Below are positions 57,460 through 64,000 of a stretch of 64,000 nt of DNA, in pieces. The translations under genes were made by a program, and so were the position numbers. The notes under the pieces are model-generated. The model did no database searches. It saw only the letters and a program-made list of their open reading frames with translations, and was not told the DNA's origin. Source of the DNA: Chryseobacterium scophthalmum (lineage in GTDB: Bacteria; Bacteroidota; Bacteroidia; Flavobacteriales; Weeksellaceae). Numbering within the stretch: the first letter of the stretch is position 1; every line of letters starts with the position of its first letter. The DNA lies in assembly GCF_900143185.1 (NCBI RefSeq), contig NZ_FSRQ01000005.1:225405-289404 (forward strand). The letters run 5' to 3'.

Positions 57460-57987
57460 ATGAAACCACCTACTCTACTACAGTACAATTACGATGTCAA
57501 TCTCAAACACAATAAGATTGTAATGACCAACCTTAAAGATACCTCTGTACCTTTAATTATCTACAATAAAAATAAATTTAATACAAAAGATTATTATTCT
57601 TCCTACGAGCTTAATTCAAATGACGAGATTTCGCATTTGGTAGATGTAGATTCATACAGTTATGAAGTAACAGGGCCAAATGGTTTTGTAAGAAAGTTTA
57701 AAGGCACAAAAAATCCTGAGCTTGAAGTAACCCTATTCTGCAATCTCTATAAAAATGAAGTTGATGTAACATTGATAAACATCTCAACAAATACTCTAAA
57801 TATCAGTTTAGAAAATCAGTATGATGAAAACAAAAAAAATATCTCCCTTCATGTTTCTGAAGAAAAAATAACTATAAACTTAGACAAAACAAAAGGTTGG
57901 TACGATATTAAAATAAAATCTAACAATAACAGTTGGCATTTTGCGGGAAGAATAGAACCCGGAAGACCTGTTAGAAATCTTAATTAA
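57460..57987 (+). CDS. Orphan phospholipase C C-terminal (DUF756-like) protein
   Basis: 175 residues without signal peptide or catalytic domain. The sequence matches the two C-terminal DUF756 units of phosphocholine-type phospholipase C: the first ends YEVTGPNGFVRKFKG (residues about 70-85), the second ends GWYDIKIK...FAGRIEPGRPVRNLN. In full-length enzymes these units follow a large alkaline-phosphatase-like catalytic domain, which is absent here; the 249 bases upstream are AT-rich and show no remnant. It may be a cut-down gene or a true standalone protein. It has its own promoter and a strong terminator, which favours a working gene. Confidence 0.7.
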   Translation: MKPPTLLQYNYDVNLKHNKIVMTNLKDTSVPLIIYNKNKFNTKDYYSSYELNSNDEISHLVDVDSYSYEVTGPNGFVRKFKGTKNPELEVTLFCNLYKNEVDVTLINISTNTLNISLENQYDENKKNISLHVSEEKITINLDKTKGWYDIKIKSNNNSWHFAGRIEPGRPVRNLN

Positions 57988-58212: not shown

Positions 58213-58791
58213 ATGAAAAAAACAACAATTACCCTAGCTATGTCTTTGGCTACATTTGCTCTTTCCTCAAATCTTAAGGCTCAAGATACAAACAAAGACA
58301 ATCACACGGTAACGATCTCTGTGCCTGAAGTTGCACTAGTTGATATAGAGCCAGCCGCAACTAAAAACATTACTTTAGGATTCACAGCACCTACAGAAGC
58401 AGGAAATCCGGTAGTTCCAAACACTGCAAACAGTACACTTTGGCTCAATTATTCTTCTATTAAATCTGTTGCAGACCCAACCCGTAATGTATCTGTAAGT
58501 GTAAATGCTATTATCCCGGGGATTGATATTCATGTAACTGCAGCGGCAGCTACAGGTTCTGGAGGAGGATCATTGGGAAATCCGGCTGCTCAGCTGACAC
58601 TGAGTGCTACAGATCAAACAATTATTTCAGGAATAGGAAGTGCTTATACAGGCAACGGAGCCAATAACGGTCATAATCTTACGTATGCTTTAGCTGCAGG
58701 AAGTGGTCCCGGTGGAGTTGCAGTTTATGAAGATTTACAGGCAACCGCAACAACTGTTGCAACGGTTACTTATACCATTTCGGATAATTAA
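58213..58791 (+). CDS. Pilin-like secreted subunit (copy 1 of the chaperone/usher-like operon)
   Basis: 192 residues with signal peptide MKKTTITLAMSLATFALSSN ending LKAQ. The mature chain shares most blocks with the product at 62396: DIEPA, FTAPTEAGNPVVPNTANST, GGGSLGNPAAQLTL, QTIISGIGSAYTGNGANNGH. It ends VATVTYTIS, an alternating hydrophobic strand like the last strand of fimbrial subunits. It is small, exported, cysteine-free and glycine-rich. First gene of five in a row; 94 bases separate it from the chaperone-like gene. The pilin role is inferred from context and the paralog. Confidence 0.6.
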   Translation: MKKTTITLAMSLATFALSSNLKAQDTNKDNHTVTISVPEVALVDIEPAATKNITLGFTAPTEAGNPVVPNTANSTLWLNYSSIKSVADPTRNVSVSVNAIIPGIDIHVTAAAATGSGGGSLGNPAAQLTLSATDQTIISGIGSAYTGNGANNGHNLTYALAAGSGPGGVAVYEDLQATATTVATVTYTISDN

Positions 58792-58885
58792 TCTGTCATA
58801 CTTTATCTTTTACAGGTAAGAAGAAATTTCTTTCTCTTCTTGATCTTGTTTCATCAATGTTTTAAACACCAAACTTTACATTAAT

Positions 58886-59686
58886 ATGATAAAGCGCATT
58901 CTCCTATCGCTAATTTTCATACTACAATTCTCTTTCTTGAAAGCCGGAATTGTTGTTCTGAATGGACTTTCTCACTCTTATCAGGTAGAAAACGGGAAAG
59001 TTTACAAGGGAAAAATTGAAATAGAAAATACCGGCAATCAATCACAAAATGTAAAACTTTTTCTTCAGGATTACAGTTATCAATCTGACGGCACCATCTA
59101 TTATTCTACTCCTCATACCAACAGTAAAACCAATACAGATTGGATTACAATGAATACCAATCTTATTACTCTCAAAGCCAAACAAAAAACAGAAGTTTAC
59201 TACGAAATAACCGTTCCTAACAGTCTTTCTGTGCCAGGAAGTTATTGGAGTGTGATTATGGTAGAACCTTTAGAAGATATAAAACCTAATGACAGTAAGC
59301 AGGGAGTAAGTATTACCTCCATTATTCGCTATGCCATTCAGATAATCACAGATTTTGATTCAGAAAAAGCAAAACCAGATTTGAAATTTGAAGATGTGAA
59401 AATTGAAAAAGAAGAAGGAAAACAAATCTTAAAAGTTGCTATTACCAACAAAGGAAATCTTTATTGTAAACCAACCGCCAACATTGAAATTTACAACAAA
59501 AAAACAGGAGAAAAACTCGGAAATTTCTCAAGTCAGGCATCGGGATTATTACCGCAAACTTCAAAATATTTTTATATCGATATCAGCAAAATACCTCCCG
59601 AAAAATATAATGCGGTACTGATTGCCACTGACGAAGAAGAAAATGCATTCGCCCTAAATGTAGAACTAGAAGTAAAGAATGATTAA
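58886..59686 (+). CDS. Periplasmic chaperone-like two-domain protein
   Basis: 266 residues with signal peptide MIKRILLSLIFILQFSFLKA. It has two beta-sandwich halves. Residues 22-140 (YQVENGKVYKGKIEIENTGN, LITLKAKQKTEVYYEITVPN, GSYWSVIMVEPLED) resemble the N-terminal Ig-like domain of PapD-type or WxL-interacting proteins. Residues about 165-266 form a second domain (LKVAITNKGNLYCKPTANIE, LLPQTSKYFYIDISKIPPEK). The invariant Arg/Lys pair of classic pilus chaperones is not obvious. Its 3' end overlaps the barrel gene by 8 bases. A subunit-chaperone role is inferred. Confidence 0.6.
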   Translation: MIKRILLSLIFILQFSFLKAGIVVLNGLSHSYQVENGKVYKGKIEIENTGNQSQNVKLFLQDYSYQSDGTIYYSTPHTNSKTNTDWITMNTNLITLKAKQKTEVYYEITVPNSLSVPGSYWSVIMVEPLEDIKPNDSKQGVSITSIIRYAIQIITDFDSEKAKPDLKFEDVKIEKEEGKQILKVAITNKGNLYCKPTANIEIYNKKTGEKLGNFSSQASGLLPQTSKYFYIDISKIPPEKYNAVLIATDEEENAFALNVELEVKND

Positions 59687-62399
59687 AAAATGGATAATTT
59701 ATTTTACTCTATTATTCCCGGCATTTATTTTTTCTCAAAAAAAAGATAGTCTGAAACCGGGGACAACTACTTCTATTTCCTTCACCATAGAAAACAAAAA
59801 TTCTGTAGCAAAAGCCTACAATCTAAAAGCAGAAACTTCTAACAATTTCATTATTCCTATTCTAAAAAATGGAGAAATAACCGTTTCACCGAATGAAAGT
59901 AAAATTTATATTGTTCCTTTACAAATAGCGACTGAAACTCCGCAAGGAAAATATTCTGTTTTACTACAGGGAACTGAAATTACAACAGGCGAAAATATTA
60001 TTGAAACGGCTGAATTATTAGTTTCCGGAAACAGAAAACTTTCTCTTACTCTTTTAGATTCCCCGGAGTTTGTGAAAGCAGGAGAGACAATACAATCAAC
60101 TTTTTTATTAAAAAATCATGGAAACGTTTCTGAAAATTTAATTTTAGAAAGCAAAAATGCCGTCATTGATCTGGGCGCAACTTTAATTTTGGCTCCCAGC
60201 GAAAGCAAAAAAATTACAGTAAGTAAAAGAACTCCATCAGATTTAGGGAAAAATGAATATCAGAATTTAAATCTTTCAGTTTTTTCAAAAGATAATCCTC
60301 AGGAAAATCAGACTGCCTATTCAAGTGTAAAAATCATTTCTGTAAAACCCGTCGAGGAAGATGTTTTCCACAGATTTCCAGTTTTGGCTTCTGTGTCTAT
60401 GATTGGAATGCAAAATCGGGGGCGTTATGACAGTGGTTTCCAGGGCGAATTGTATGGAAAAGGAAGTTTAGATGACGAAAATAAAAACCTTTTAGAATTT
60501 CATGCAGTTACCAAAAATCCGGTAGAATTTAATTCTTTTACTCAATATGAAGAATATTTTGTGAATTATAAACGAGAAAATTTCTGGGTTCATTTAGGCG
60601 ATAAAAATTATTTTGCCTCTTTTTTAACTGAATACGCAAGATACGGTCGAGGTGCAGAAATCCGTTTCGACCTAAAAAAAATAAGCTTTGGTGGGTTTTA
60701 TAATCATCCACGATTTTTCAGAGATATTAAAGATGAATTTAATGTTTATTCAAAATTAAAAATCGGGAAACAATCTGAAATTACAGCAGGATATTTATAT
60801 AAAATTCCAAGAACAGAAAGTACAGATGTAATCCTTACTAATATGAGAATAGATTCAAATGCGTATTTGCCTTATCTCACAGGAAAATTTAATATCAATA
60901 AAAATCTTGAGATTTCAGGAGAAACATCGTACAGTAAAACAGCAAAAACAGACGGCACTGCTTTTATGATTCAAACCATTGCCAATTATGAAAGAGTAAA
61001 AGGAAATGTAATGTATATGAGAGCAAGTCCGGAATATGCAGGATATTTTAATAACACGAGCAATATCAATATTAATCTTCAGTATCAGTTATCAAAACAG
61101 ATTCATTTTATTGCCAACTATGTACAGGATGCTAAAAACTTTCAGCGTGACACTTTGTTTCTTGCGGCTCCTTATCGCAAATATTTGCAGTATGGAATTC
61201 AATATAAATATTCTAAAAACGGAAATGTAATATTTTACGGAGGCACCCAAAGATATGAAGACCGATTAATGCCCAAAGAATTTGATTATAACGACCGTTT
61301 TTTTAAACTTTCCGTTAACCAGCAAATCGGAATTTTCCAGTTGAATGTTGAAGGACAGTTGGGGAAAACAGAAAACTATCTGACCGGAGTTTCGGGAAAT
61401 TCAAGTTTTTATACTGCAAACATAAGCTTTGATAAATTTAAAACTTCATTTAATATCTATGGAAGTTATGCACTTACTTCCCGTTATCAATTACAGAATC
61501 AACGGCAGTTTTATTTTGGAGCAAGAATTTTAAATCGGTTTTCAGATAAAACACAGTTCAGTCTTTTTTATCAGAACAATTATATGCCTGAAGATTATTA
61601 TACTGACAGAAATCTTTTTGAACTCCTTTTTCAGCAGCAAATTTTTTCTAAACATGAGATTGGCGTTTCTGCGAGATATAATTTACAGCGTGGAGAATTG
61701 GGGAATAAAGATTTTATTTTTTCGTTGCGTTATACTTTAAAAATGAATATTCCGACTCAGAAAATTGCAGAATACACTACTTTATCCGGAAACATAAAAA
61801 ATTTAGGCGTAAAAAAGGTTGACGGAATCCGACTGATTATGGGAAATCATCTTTCGATAACCGACAGAAATGGAAATTATTTATTCAAAAATGTTAATCC
61901 AGGTGATTATGTTTTGGAAATTGACAGATCAACAACAGACATTAATGATATTGCCGATCAAAATGTTCCTGCCTCTTTAGTTTTAACTGATAAAGAAAAT
62001 ATTTTCAACTTTGGATTGACAAGTGCTGCAAAGATTCAGGGAAAAATTGATTATACAGAAAACGAAAATAGATTGAGCTTCGCCCAGCTTTCAACCAAAA
62101 AAAAGAAAAACGAAAATGTAATTGTTGAAGTGAGTAACGGTAATCAGACATTTAGAAAAATAGCTCTATTGGGAGACTCTTTTGATTTCACTTATTTGCG
62201 TCCCGGAGATTGGAAAGTGAAAGTTTACAGAAACGGCTTAGATAAAAGATATAAAATACCAATTGATCATTTTGAATTTAATCTACAATCTGCCGAAACA
62301 AAAAATGTAACAATTAATATCATCAAGCAGTCATCCGAAATAAAATATCAACAGGAAACCATTAAAGTAAGTTATAACCAAAACAAAAAACAAAAATGA
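59679..62399 (+). CDS. Large usher-like outer membrane protein
   Basis: 906 residues. Signal peptide MIKKWIIYFTLLFPAFIFSQ. Residues about 25-225 are two NEW3/CARDB-like Ig domains (TTSISFTIENKNSVAKAYNL, VKAGETIQSTFLLKNHGN). About 235-700 is a long beta-barrel-like stretch of aromatic alternating strands. About 705-790 is a carboxypeptidase-regulatory-like domain (ISGN-like start, SITDRNGNYLFKNVNPGDYV), followed by another beta domain to about 880. A barrel flanked by beta-sandwich domains and sitting between a chaperone-like gene and subunit-like genes is the layout of an usher, although FimD-type motifs are not seen. It overlaps both neighbours. Confidence 0.6.
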   Translation: MIKKWIIYFTLLFPAFIFSQKKDSLKPGTTTSISFTIENKNSVAKAYNLKAETSNNFIIPILKNGEITVSPNESKIYIVPLQIATETPQGKYSVLLQGTEITTGENIIETAELLVSGNRKLSLTLLDSPEFVKAGETIQSTFLLKNHGNVSENLILESKNAVIDLGATLILAPSESKKITVSKRTPSDLGKNEYQNLNLSVFSKDNPQENQTAYSSVKIISVKPVEEDVFHRFPVLASVSMIGMQNRGRYDSGFQGELYGKGSLDDENKNLLEFHAVTKNPVEFNSFTQYEEYFVNYKRENFWVHLGDKNYFASFLTEYARYGRGAEIRFDLKKISFGGFYNHPRFFRDIKDEFNVYSKLKIGKQSEITAGYLYKIPRTESTDVILTNMRIDSNAYLPYLTGKFNINKNLEISGETSYSKTAKTDGTAFMIQTIANYERVKGNVMYMRASPEYAGYFNNTSNININLQYQLSKQIHFIANYVQDAKNFQRDTLFLAAPYRKYLQYGIQYKYSKNGNVIFYGGTQRYEDRLMPKEFDYNDRFFKLSVNQQIGIFQLNVEGQLGKTENYLTGVSGNSSFYTANISFDKFKTSFNIYGSYALTSRYQLQNQRQFYFGARILNRFSDKTQFSLFYQNNYMPEDYYTDRNLFELLFQQQIFSKHEIGVSARYNLQRGELGNKDFIFSLRYTLKMNIPTQKIAEYTTLSGNIKNLGVKKVDGIRLIMGNHLSITDRNGNYLFKNVNPGDYVLEIDRSTTDINDIADQNVPASLVLTDKENIFNFGLTSAAKIQGKIDYTENENRLSFAQLSTKKKKNENVIVEVSNGNQTFRKIALLGDSFDFTYLRPGDWKVKVYRNGLDKRYKIPIDHFEFNLQSAETKNVTINIIKQSSEIKYQQETIKVSYNQNKKQK

Positions 62400-62926
62400 G
62401 TTACTTCAAATTAGTTTTCTTGATCTGTTTTATCATTTCTTCTCATCTGTTTTCACAACTTTCAGGAAACAGTACTTTGAGCGTAAATTTACCCATTGTT
62501 ACTTTAATGGATATTGAACCAACCGGAGCAATTTCAATGAATTTTACAGCTCCTACAGAAGCTGGGGTGGCAATTGTTTCGCCTGCTACAAATACAACAA
62601 AATGGATTAACTATACATCAGCAATTACCTCTAGTGGAGCAACACGGAAAATAACAGCCTCCGTCAACCCAGTAATTTCTGGAGTTGATATAAAAATTCA
62701 AGCTGCAGCAGCTTCGGGAGCTGGAGGAGGAACATTAGGAACTCCAACTTCTCAAGTCACTCTCAATACAACATCACAAACGATAATCAGTGGAATAGGC
62801 GGCGCATTCACCGGAAATGGAGTAAATAACGGGCATCGATTGACCATAAGTTTATCAACAAATACTTATGCCAATCTATCAAGAACCAATACACCTGTAG
62901 TAATTGTGTATACCATCACCGAATAA
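62396..62926 (+). CDS. Pilin-like secreted subunit (copy 2)
   Basis: 176 residues. Signal peptide MSYFKLVFLICFIISSHLFS. It is a paralog of the 58213 product with conserved blocks DIEPTGAISMNFTAPTEAGV, NTTKWINYTS, GGGTLGTPTSQVTL, QTIISGIGGAFTGNGVNNGH and a final strand VVIVYTITE. The ATG overlaps the stop of the usher-like gene by 4 bases (ATGA), so translation is coupled. The presence of two related subunits around the chaperone and barrel genes is the main support for a fibre system. Confidence 0.6.
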   Translation: MSYFKLVFLICFIISSHLFSQLSGNSTLSVNLPIVTLMDIEPTGAISMNFTAPTEAGVAIVSPATNTTKWINYTSAITSSGATRKITASVNPVISGVDIKIQAAAASGAGGGTLGTPTSQVTLNTTSQTIISGIGGAFTGNGVNNGHRLTISLSTNTYANLSRTNTPVVIVYTITE

Positions 62927-62936
62927 ATAAAAAAAT

Positions 62937-63461
62937 ATGAGAGCAAATTATATTAATCATAATAGAAGATATTTATTCAAAATAAGTTTTATATTCTTTT
63001 TAATATTTTCCTGTGTATTAAAAGCACAAAGAACTATAACTGTAGCGGGTGGTAATTGGGCAGTACCTATACCATCAATCACAGAAGCAGGATCAAACTA
63101 TGTAGGAACTTATGAAAGCTTAGACAACCAAGTGCTATTAACTGTAAGTGTTCCTCTTGCATTAAGCAATGGTAAAATTTCTGTACATTATGAGCCTAAC
63201 CCGACATGGAACTCCAATTTAATATTGAATGTTAAAAGAACAGGTGACGGATCAACACTATGTGTATTGTGTACAATAAGCGGAGGAAGCGTTTACCAAG
63301 CCGTGACACTTACAGATTTAGAATTATTTAGAATTACAGCAGTATTAGCCTTAGGTTCTTATTCAAATATTCCAATTAAAATACAACTCAGCGGAGTTTC
63401 AGTCACTATTCCAGCCGCAACTTACAATAGTAAACTTGTATTTACAATAGGTCCAATTTAA
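62937..63461 (+). CDS. Third secreted subunit-like protein of the operon
   Basis: 174 residues, starting 10 bases after copy 2. The signal region is long, with a polar lead MRANYINHNRRYLFK before the hydrophobic core ending VLKAQ. The mature part has beta strands (VAGGNWAVPIPSITEAGSNY, QVLLTVSVPLALSNGKISVH), two cysteines (LCVLC) and a C-terminal SVTIPAATYNSKLVFTI, like the end strand of spore-coat-U/fimbrial subunits. It is not an obvious paralog of the other two and could be a tip or anchor subunit. Confidence 0.55.
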   Translation: MRANYINHNRRYLFKISFIFFLIFSCVLKAQRTITVAGGNWAVPIPSITEAGSNYVGTYESLDNQVLLTVSVPLALSNGKISVHYEPNPTWNSNLILNVKRTGDGSTLCVLCTISGGSVYQAVTLTDLELFRITAVLALGSYSNIPIKIQLSGVSVTIPAATYNSKLVFTIGPI

Positions 63462-63921: not shown

Positions 63922-63930
63922 AAAAAAAAC

Positions 63931-64000
63931 TGGCGGCGACCTACTCTCCCGCTTTCGCAGTACCATCGGCGCTAGAGGGCTTAACTTCTGTGTTCGGAAT
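63931..64000 (-). rRNA. rrf: 5S ribosomal RNA (3' part, runs off the window)
   Basis: On the minus strand the last 70 bases read ATTCCGAACACAGAAGTTAA, then GCCCTCTAGCGCCGATGGTA, then CTGCGAAAGCGGGAGAGTAG and GTCGCCGCCA, the conserved 3' two thirds of bacterial 5S rRNA. The 5' part and the rest of the rrn operon lie beyond the window. Confidence 0.95.

Follow-up and report, generated by a model that had tools for sequence, protein, structure and literature searches.

Can a bacterium of the phylum Bacteroidota build surface fibers with a chaperone-usher-like machine that standard annotation overlooks? The question is raised by five consecutive genes near one end of a 64,000-nucleotide stretch of the Chryseobacterium scophthalmum genome (G000, 4.47 Mb in 9 contigs; the stretch is G000:C5:225405-289404), the whole of which we call the window. 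An earlier look at the letters alone, the original prediction, proposed a chaperone-usher-type surface fiber system here. All five open reading frames (ORFs) of that proposal were recovered on one strand, with an intergenic element between the first two:

58213-58791, + strand: subunit A1, an ORF of 192 amino acids (aa) with a Sec signal peptide recognized by eye; pilin-like small beta-protein, candidate major subunit.
58792-58885, + strand: intergenic hairpin between the A1 and WxL-interacting protein (WxLIP) genes, from a 38-sequence alignment.
58886-59686, + strand: candidate chaperone of 266 aa, a two-domain periplasmic protein assigned to the WxLIP family by Pfam, PDB and profile comparison.
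59679-62399, + strand: candidate usher, 906 aa, with Ig-like, predicted barrel and transthyretin-like domains.
62396-62926, + strand: subunit A2, an ORF of 176 aa; paralog of A1, fused to the next product in three loci.
62937-63461, + strand: subunit B, a small, putatively exported beta-protein of 174 aa; possibly the tip subunit.

The spaces between successive genes are 94, -8, -4 and 10 bases. Within genes 2-5, neighbors thus overlap or sit no more than 10 bases apart, as had been described for four of the five.

We conclude that this operon probably encodes a divergent chaperone-usher-like exporter of a fiber or an adhesin. The genes, their order, the WxLIP-family membership of the second product, its link to PapD through intermediates and the recurrence of the arrangement in the phylum were established directly. 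By Pfam the locus lies outside the classical families, with its chaperone joined to them only through intermediates. The original prediction is partly supported: the architecture, the gene order, the PapD-linked WxLIP and a second such locus elsewhere in the genome speak for the proposed fiber system, but an Usher match and a profile link to FimD or FimA are missing.

What is the candidate chaperone? The 58886-59686 product is a WxLIP homolog. It exceeds the Pfam cut-off for WxLIP_HBD (PF11797; 36 bits versus 28.9) and falls just under that for WxLIP_PGBD (PF06030; 25.1 bits, E 1.9e-5, versus 27.3), and its PDB relative is EfmWxLIP1 (9i25/9i1y; E 6e-5 in a single search, 8e-7 with a profile). 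Together, PF11797 and EfmWxLIP1 identify it as the two-domain WxLIP of WxL/WxLIP systems. Profile-profile comparison (hhalign, with signal peptides trimmed, separated sequence sets and reversed profiles as the null) of the window family with Gram-positive WxLIPs gave 97.9 (score 100 versus 20 reversed). Pfam finds no PapD_N match in the 266-aa protein at E up to 1, and none in its own genome at E up to 0.01.

The link to PapD instead runs through related chaperones. We compared the window WxLIP family (wxb) with c18, a set of 28 chaperones of one family in which the members from loci L160 and L210 exceed the Pfam PapD_N cut-off; c24 is a further chaperone set. The wxb and c18 profiles align at 98.5 (score 115 versus 17 reversed), colinearly through both domains, and c18 aligns with E. 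coli PapD-type chaperones at 87.3 (score 47 versus 18 reversed). Individual proteins form a gradient between the two Pfam families: the L148 protein exceeds the WxLIP_PGBD cut-off (27.8 bits) and has PapD_N at E 0.03; that of L149 has PapD_N at 9e-4 and WxLIP_PGBD at 3e-3; and that of L160 exceeds the PapD_N cut-off (29 bits versus 23) with WxLIP_PGBD at 0.03. These comparisons point to homology of the window chaperone with PapD through intermediates. The earlier label 'PapD/WxL-like' is apt in both halves.

The alignments also place a functional element. The PapD stretch ESLFWMNVKAIP...LQLAIISRIKLYYRP lines up with c18 residues, and those c18 residues line up with GSYWSVIMVEP...GVSITSIIRYAIQIIT of the window protein; residues about 121-156, at the end of the first domain, are assigned by alignment to a donor hairpin plus a G1-like strand. 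W121, S122 and R148 are invariant where present among 87 sequences, and the Gram-positive alignment sets a 32-residue stretch of EfmWxLIP1 on this donor-hairpin stretch. In a study of Gram-positive WxLIPs, an AlphaFold2 model has a long hairpin loop of the first WxLIP domain insert into WxL, where it closes a gap as a parallel strand and so completes the WxL sandwich; the two WxLIP domains are perpendicular to each other, the proposed role is peptidoglycan and host binding, and the word chaperone does not occur in the paper (PMC10599100). The PapD donor hairpin coincides with the WxLIP region of the loop inserted into WxL in that model (PMC10599100). The window hairpin is presumably the same one.

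There are several broader implications. The sequence relationships suggest that two systems studied separately, WxL/WxLIP and chaperone-usher, are related. We tentatively propose, with confidence a little short of even, that WxLIP and PapD form one chaperone superfamily, that a single ancestral donor-strand machine gave rise both to the Gram-positive WxL/WxLIP surface system and to chaperone-usher pili, and that Bacteroidota keep a form that pairs a WxLIP-type chaperone with an exporter in the outer membrane and has its own subunits, a form present twice in this genome. If our reading of the operon is right, Bacteroidota would carry a widespread, unannotated chaperone-usher lineage unseen by Pfam Usher, WxLIP could be tested for another role, that of a donor-strand chaperone, and the reported instability of the first WxLIP domain without WxL would be explained. 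Among the matches listed in open-licence PMC, we found no prior report of a WxLIP-PapD link or of a Bacteroidota chaperone-usher system.

Could the operon simply be a WxL system in a Gram-negative setting? It resembles the WxL/WxLIP (DUF916-DUF3324) clusters of Lactobacillales and Bacillales in having a two-domain WxLIP above the Pfam cut-off, and the Gram-positive plasmid clusters in having the gene of a small exported beta-protein directly upstream of the WxLIP gene. Unlike those clusters, it has no detectable WxL domain, LPXTG gene or WxLIP transmembrane helix, and it adds a large barrel-like protein. A WxL-type surface complex of a Gram-negative cell, in which WxLIP and the small beta-proteins form a fixed adhesive complex, the 906-aa protein does no more than secrete or anchor it and no polymer is made, would account for the WxLIP membership of the window protein, for the shared order of small WxL, WxLIP and large protein in Gram-positive clusters, and for the naming of one A1 relative, P0190, as 'WxL domain-containing protein' in one source. 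We consider this unlikely. No WxL family match lies beside any of the 26 WxLIP genes of the phylum survey described below, and 25 of the 26 genomes have none at all; the single weak match (E 0.006), in G029, is away from the WxLIP locus. Moreover, the A1 profile gives only 0.4 against WxL, no C-terminal transmembrane helix was seen by eye on the window WxLIP (which ends ...ENAFALNVELEVKND), and the multiple near-identical pilin-like genes of the second locus fit a polymer better. Separately, a plasmid record labeled Klebsiella pneumoniae (CP069367.1, 101758-102423) contains a WxLIP that shares 73% identity with one from Enterococcus faecium, likely through contamination or misassembly.

The second locus, L252 (G000:C1:408000-427000, with elements at 435-9807 of L252), contains in order five pilin-like genes and genes for a 265-aa WxLIP, a 933-aa barrel-like protein and a 477-aa protein. 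Four of the pilin-like genes are tandem copies of 181 aa, 92-99% identical, and the other encodes 195 aa at 53-56%. Residues 350-477 of the 477-aa protein match these pilin-like proteins (E 2e-10), as residues 217-291 do weakly (E 3e-4). Such a layout would be expected for a fiber with a multi-domain tip protein.

Do the small window proteins look like fiber subunits? A1 and A2 are paralogs, as predicted (47% over 180 residues, E 2e-40). The claim that both end in an alternating hydrophobic strand holds for A1 (score 3.85) but only weakly for A2 (2.38), and subunit B also ends in one (3.72). Scores of at least 3 occur in 214 of 232 A1/A2 homologs across relatives versus 19 of 43 other window ORFs; because so many of the latter score as well, the strand is enriched in the homologs but is not specific to them. 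In profile-profile comparison, A1-like proteins align with small proteins of distant WxLIP loci at 97.8 (SubA-SubR1) and with the pilin-like group of the second locus at 84.9. A1 has no Pfam match, and PDB profile searches gave nothing useful with the subunits and no match with a Gram-positive WxL protein.

Is the 906-aa protein an usher? It divides into two N-terminal Ig-like domains (about 22-222), a predicted barrel (about 222-700) and two C-terminal transthyretin-like domains (about 700-890), with Pfam marking N-terminal Ig-like and C-terminal carboxypeptidase-regulatory-like stretches, every match below curated cut-offs. The 478-residue segment 222-700 has 23 alternating-strand centers, or 25 when the threshold is relaxed, and the strongest alternation of the segments tested (mean z 7.6 versus permuted values), compared with 4.9 for a BamA-like neighbor (one sequence) and 3.6 for the FimD barrel, whose domain borders, like the name 'plug', are as we assume them to be. 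For comparison, an usher has a 24-strand barrel with a plug and C-terminal domains; here there are 23-25 centers and two C-terminal sandwich domains, and no plug was identified. Unlike FimD, the window protein has two WxLIP/chaperone-like Ig domains in place of a FimD-like N-terminus; they compare at 86.6 with c18, 79.1 with Gram-positive WxLIPs and 75.2 with the window WxLIP, although such Ig domains are common. Pfam Usher (PF00577) matches neither this protein nor any other in its genome, and a PDB search with a profile of 97 relatives returned carboxypeptidase-like stretches only. The nearest named relatives of the 906-aa protein are Chryseobacterium proteins at 95-97% (phmmer; among the matches listed, best 120 of 414).

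One could read the same protein as an unrelated outer-membrane channel or scaffold of TonB-receptor-like architecture carrying Ig and carboxypeptidase-regulatory domains, with the locus exporting something by another route. Under this alternative, the missing Usher match, the generic C-terminal domains and the failure of barrel-only comparisons are all expected. The last point weighs little, because the same test cannot join the accepted ushers FimD and EcpC (3.5), and the coupling is tight: in 61 of 64 loci the gene shares exactly 8 bases with the WxLIP gene, and 19 of the 26 genomes with a WxLIP match have the two genes side by side. We therefore regard an unrelated channel as distinctly unlikely and retain the candidate usher.

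How well is the operon kept? The survey of relatives suggested by the original prediction found the gene order conserved. Our set of related loci comprises 63, of which 62 are from Chryseobacterium or Weeksellaceae and one is from Arundinibacter; counts of 64 include the window. The complete order fimA1-wxlip-usher-fimA2-fimB is present in 59 of the 63; these include, in the fetched DNA, L061 with an usher frame of just 327 aa and L009 with a first gene of 76 aa. Three others have the last two genes fused, with subunit B joined C-terminally to A2 (L036, 345 aa; L040, 348 aa; L056, 338 aa), and the remaining one (L032) begins at a contig end and is cut. Subunit A1 is present in 62 of 63. In 61 of the 64 loci the chaperone and usher genes have the exact 8-base overlap already mentioned, and in 55 of 64 the usher gene runs exactly 4 bases into the following subunit gene. 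Recurrence of the order with exact overlaps is more than chance. Across the family, 99 of 246 sampled genomes have WxLIP profile matches; in the same genus, a window-type or related WxLIP was matched in 86 of 99 genomes (83 at E < 1e-60, the other three near 1e-12) and none in 13. These genus and family counts are lower bounds, because the nine-row profile used missed the genome's own second WxLIP, which a larger profile found.

The conserved order of subunit, two-domain Ig chaperone, large protein and minor subunits resembles that of E. coli chaperone-usher operons (FimA-FimC-FimD-FimF/G/H). The two also share an outer-membrane-like large protein with C-terminal sandwich domains and, via intermediates, a PapD-related chaperone, but Pfam recognizes no PapD_N, Usher or fimbrial subunit in the five proteins. 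In Bacteroidota the usual expectation would be a type V (lipoprotein) pilus or a type IX secretion substrate cluster, a point of phylum context only. We find this highly improbable, given that none of the five proteins has a Pfam match of that kind, lipoprotein fimbrillins included, or a lipobox or C-terminal sorting domain as judged by eye and Pfam.

Does the arrangement extend beyond the family? In a phylum sample of 395 genomes, the WxLIP profile matches 26, and in 19 of these a barrel-sized gene lies directly beside the WxLIP gene (read by eye; the one in G097 is cut by a contig end). Pfam Usher exceeds its cut-off in none of the 395. Four matches fall below it (E 2e-5 to 7e-4), and all are barrel genes directly after a WxLIP-like chaperone (L206-L209; chaperones at E 5e-12 to 8e-26), with DUF4402-matching genes upstream in three and the fourth locus starting at a contig end. 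The barrels of these four loci (b24) align with a set of 17 barrels (b18) at 100 over 862 columns (score 1009), and b18 aligns with FimD at 87.6, colinearly over 603 columns (61 versus at most 21 with shuffled columns), including plug- and C-terminal-domain-like stretches. PapD_N exceeds its cut-off in 23 of 395 genomes, all in one family of the GTDB-style phylum, and reaches E up to 0.01 in 31. The earlier statement that classical chaperone-usher pili are absent from Bacteroidota holds in this sample at family level as far as the usher is concerned, but PapD-type chaperones do occur in the phylum, in those 23 genomes. Loci L160 and L206-L211, which combine PapD_N or WxLIP-like chaperones with DUF4402-type subunits, have chaperones homologous to the window's (98.5) and similar C-terminal domains (96.0); no homology to the window could be demonstrated for their barrels or for their subunits, which are DUF4402 or of another family.

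Two further features of these loci were seen. The f24-type barrel proteins at L206 7391-10906 and L207 6058-10575 carry C-terminal SPOR domains (PF05036, E 5e-23 and 7e-15); such domains might link an usher-like protein to peptidoglycan. In genus g64, L126, L127, L130, L134 and L142 are WxLIP-family genes with no neighboring barrel gene; one genome of that genus, G153, elsewhere holds L160, in which a DUF4402 gene precedes a PapD_N chaperone and a 918-aa barrel.

Several results weigh against a chaperone-usher-like exporter. First, the originally suggested comparison of the 58886 product with PapD finds nothing when made directly (wxb versus PapD, 2.6; score 24 versus 21 reversed) and gives a link only via c18. 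Second, the parallel comparison of the 59679 product with FimD yields no profile link for the barrel segment: the barrel-only profile gives 1.5 against FimD and 0.8 against b18, and the positive control FimD-EcpC gives only 3.5, so that this failure is weak evidence. The full window type aligns with b18 at 97.1, and its C-terminal domains alone do so at 96.0. In controls on the score, however, shuffled barrel columns gave 82.1 (maximum 82.9) and rotated ones 91.4 (maximum 102.3 in 20), versus 101.7 observed. Because rotated columns match the observed score, the 906-aa protein seems to have generic barrel likeness without demonstrated homology, and we dropped barrel homology to FimD-type ushers. 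An usher-usher link via the C-terminal domains was likewise rejected as generic, because the genome's other outer-membrane proteins have carboxypeptidase-regulatory domains that match them too (95.5, 54). Third, homology of the subunits to known pilins was not found with FimA or DUF4402 profiles: A1 gives 3.4 against FimA and 0.2-0.4 against DUF4402, besides the 0.4 against WxL, and subunit B gives 6.7 against FimA and 23.5 at best, with no firm link to anything. Finally, the barrel gene sits two genes from the WxLIP match in G002, and no barrel gene lies beside WxLIP in G114, G121, G153, G193, G276 (five f18 genomes of genus g64) or G254.

For the exporter that we nevertheless favor, we propose the following mechanism, in which export, the donor-strand steps, the barrel pore and the polymer are drawn by analogy. 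The small proteins would be exported by Sec as incomplete Ig-like subunits. In the periplasm, the WxLIP protein would cap each subunit by lending it a hydrophobic strand from the hairpin at about residues 121-156, and the chaperone-subunit complex would dock on the 906-aa protein of the outer membrane through the latter's N-terminal Ig domains. Subunits could then be joined by donor strand exchange, each with the N-terminus of the next, into a fiber or short adhesin that leaves through the barrel, while the two C-terminal domains hold its growing end. A1 would be the main subunit, since its gene stands apart by a conserved hairpin, with A2 and B serving as minor or tip subunits.

That hairpin, in the 94-base space after A1, is conserved across an alignment of 38 sequences drawn from the loci, with 8 pairs and 94.4% of cells paired. 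Cells changed on both sides number 14 versus a shuffled mean of 4.9 (0 of 500 shuffles reach 14); counted by pairs, both-side change occurs in 3 versus a shuffled mean of 2.1 (127 of 500 reach 3). The hairpin could possibly act as an attenuator or mRNA-stabilizing element that sets subunit excess. The Bacteroidota promoter motif TAnnTTTG occurs upstream of gene 1 in 4 of 61 loci, the window not being one of them, and sigma-70 and terminator scans were near chance (38 versus 30.5 and 4 versus 3.0, respectively).

The operon is flanked by a shortened phospholipase-C-like gene on one side and 5S rRNA at the end of the window on the other. The former, a 175-aa frame at 57460-57987, matches phosphocholine-specific phospholipase C over the C-terminal part of that enzyme alone (TIGR03396 positions 512-680) and looks like a remnant, because 45 of the 63 fetched relatives hold a frame of at least 700 aa at this site; that of L006 is 167 aa. 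The 5S rRNA lies at 63928-64000 on the - strand, and the contigs of many relatives likewise stop 1-2 kb past the operon, as if it were beside an rRNA operon there too.

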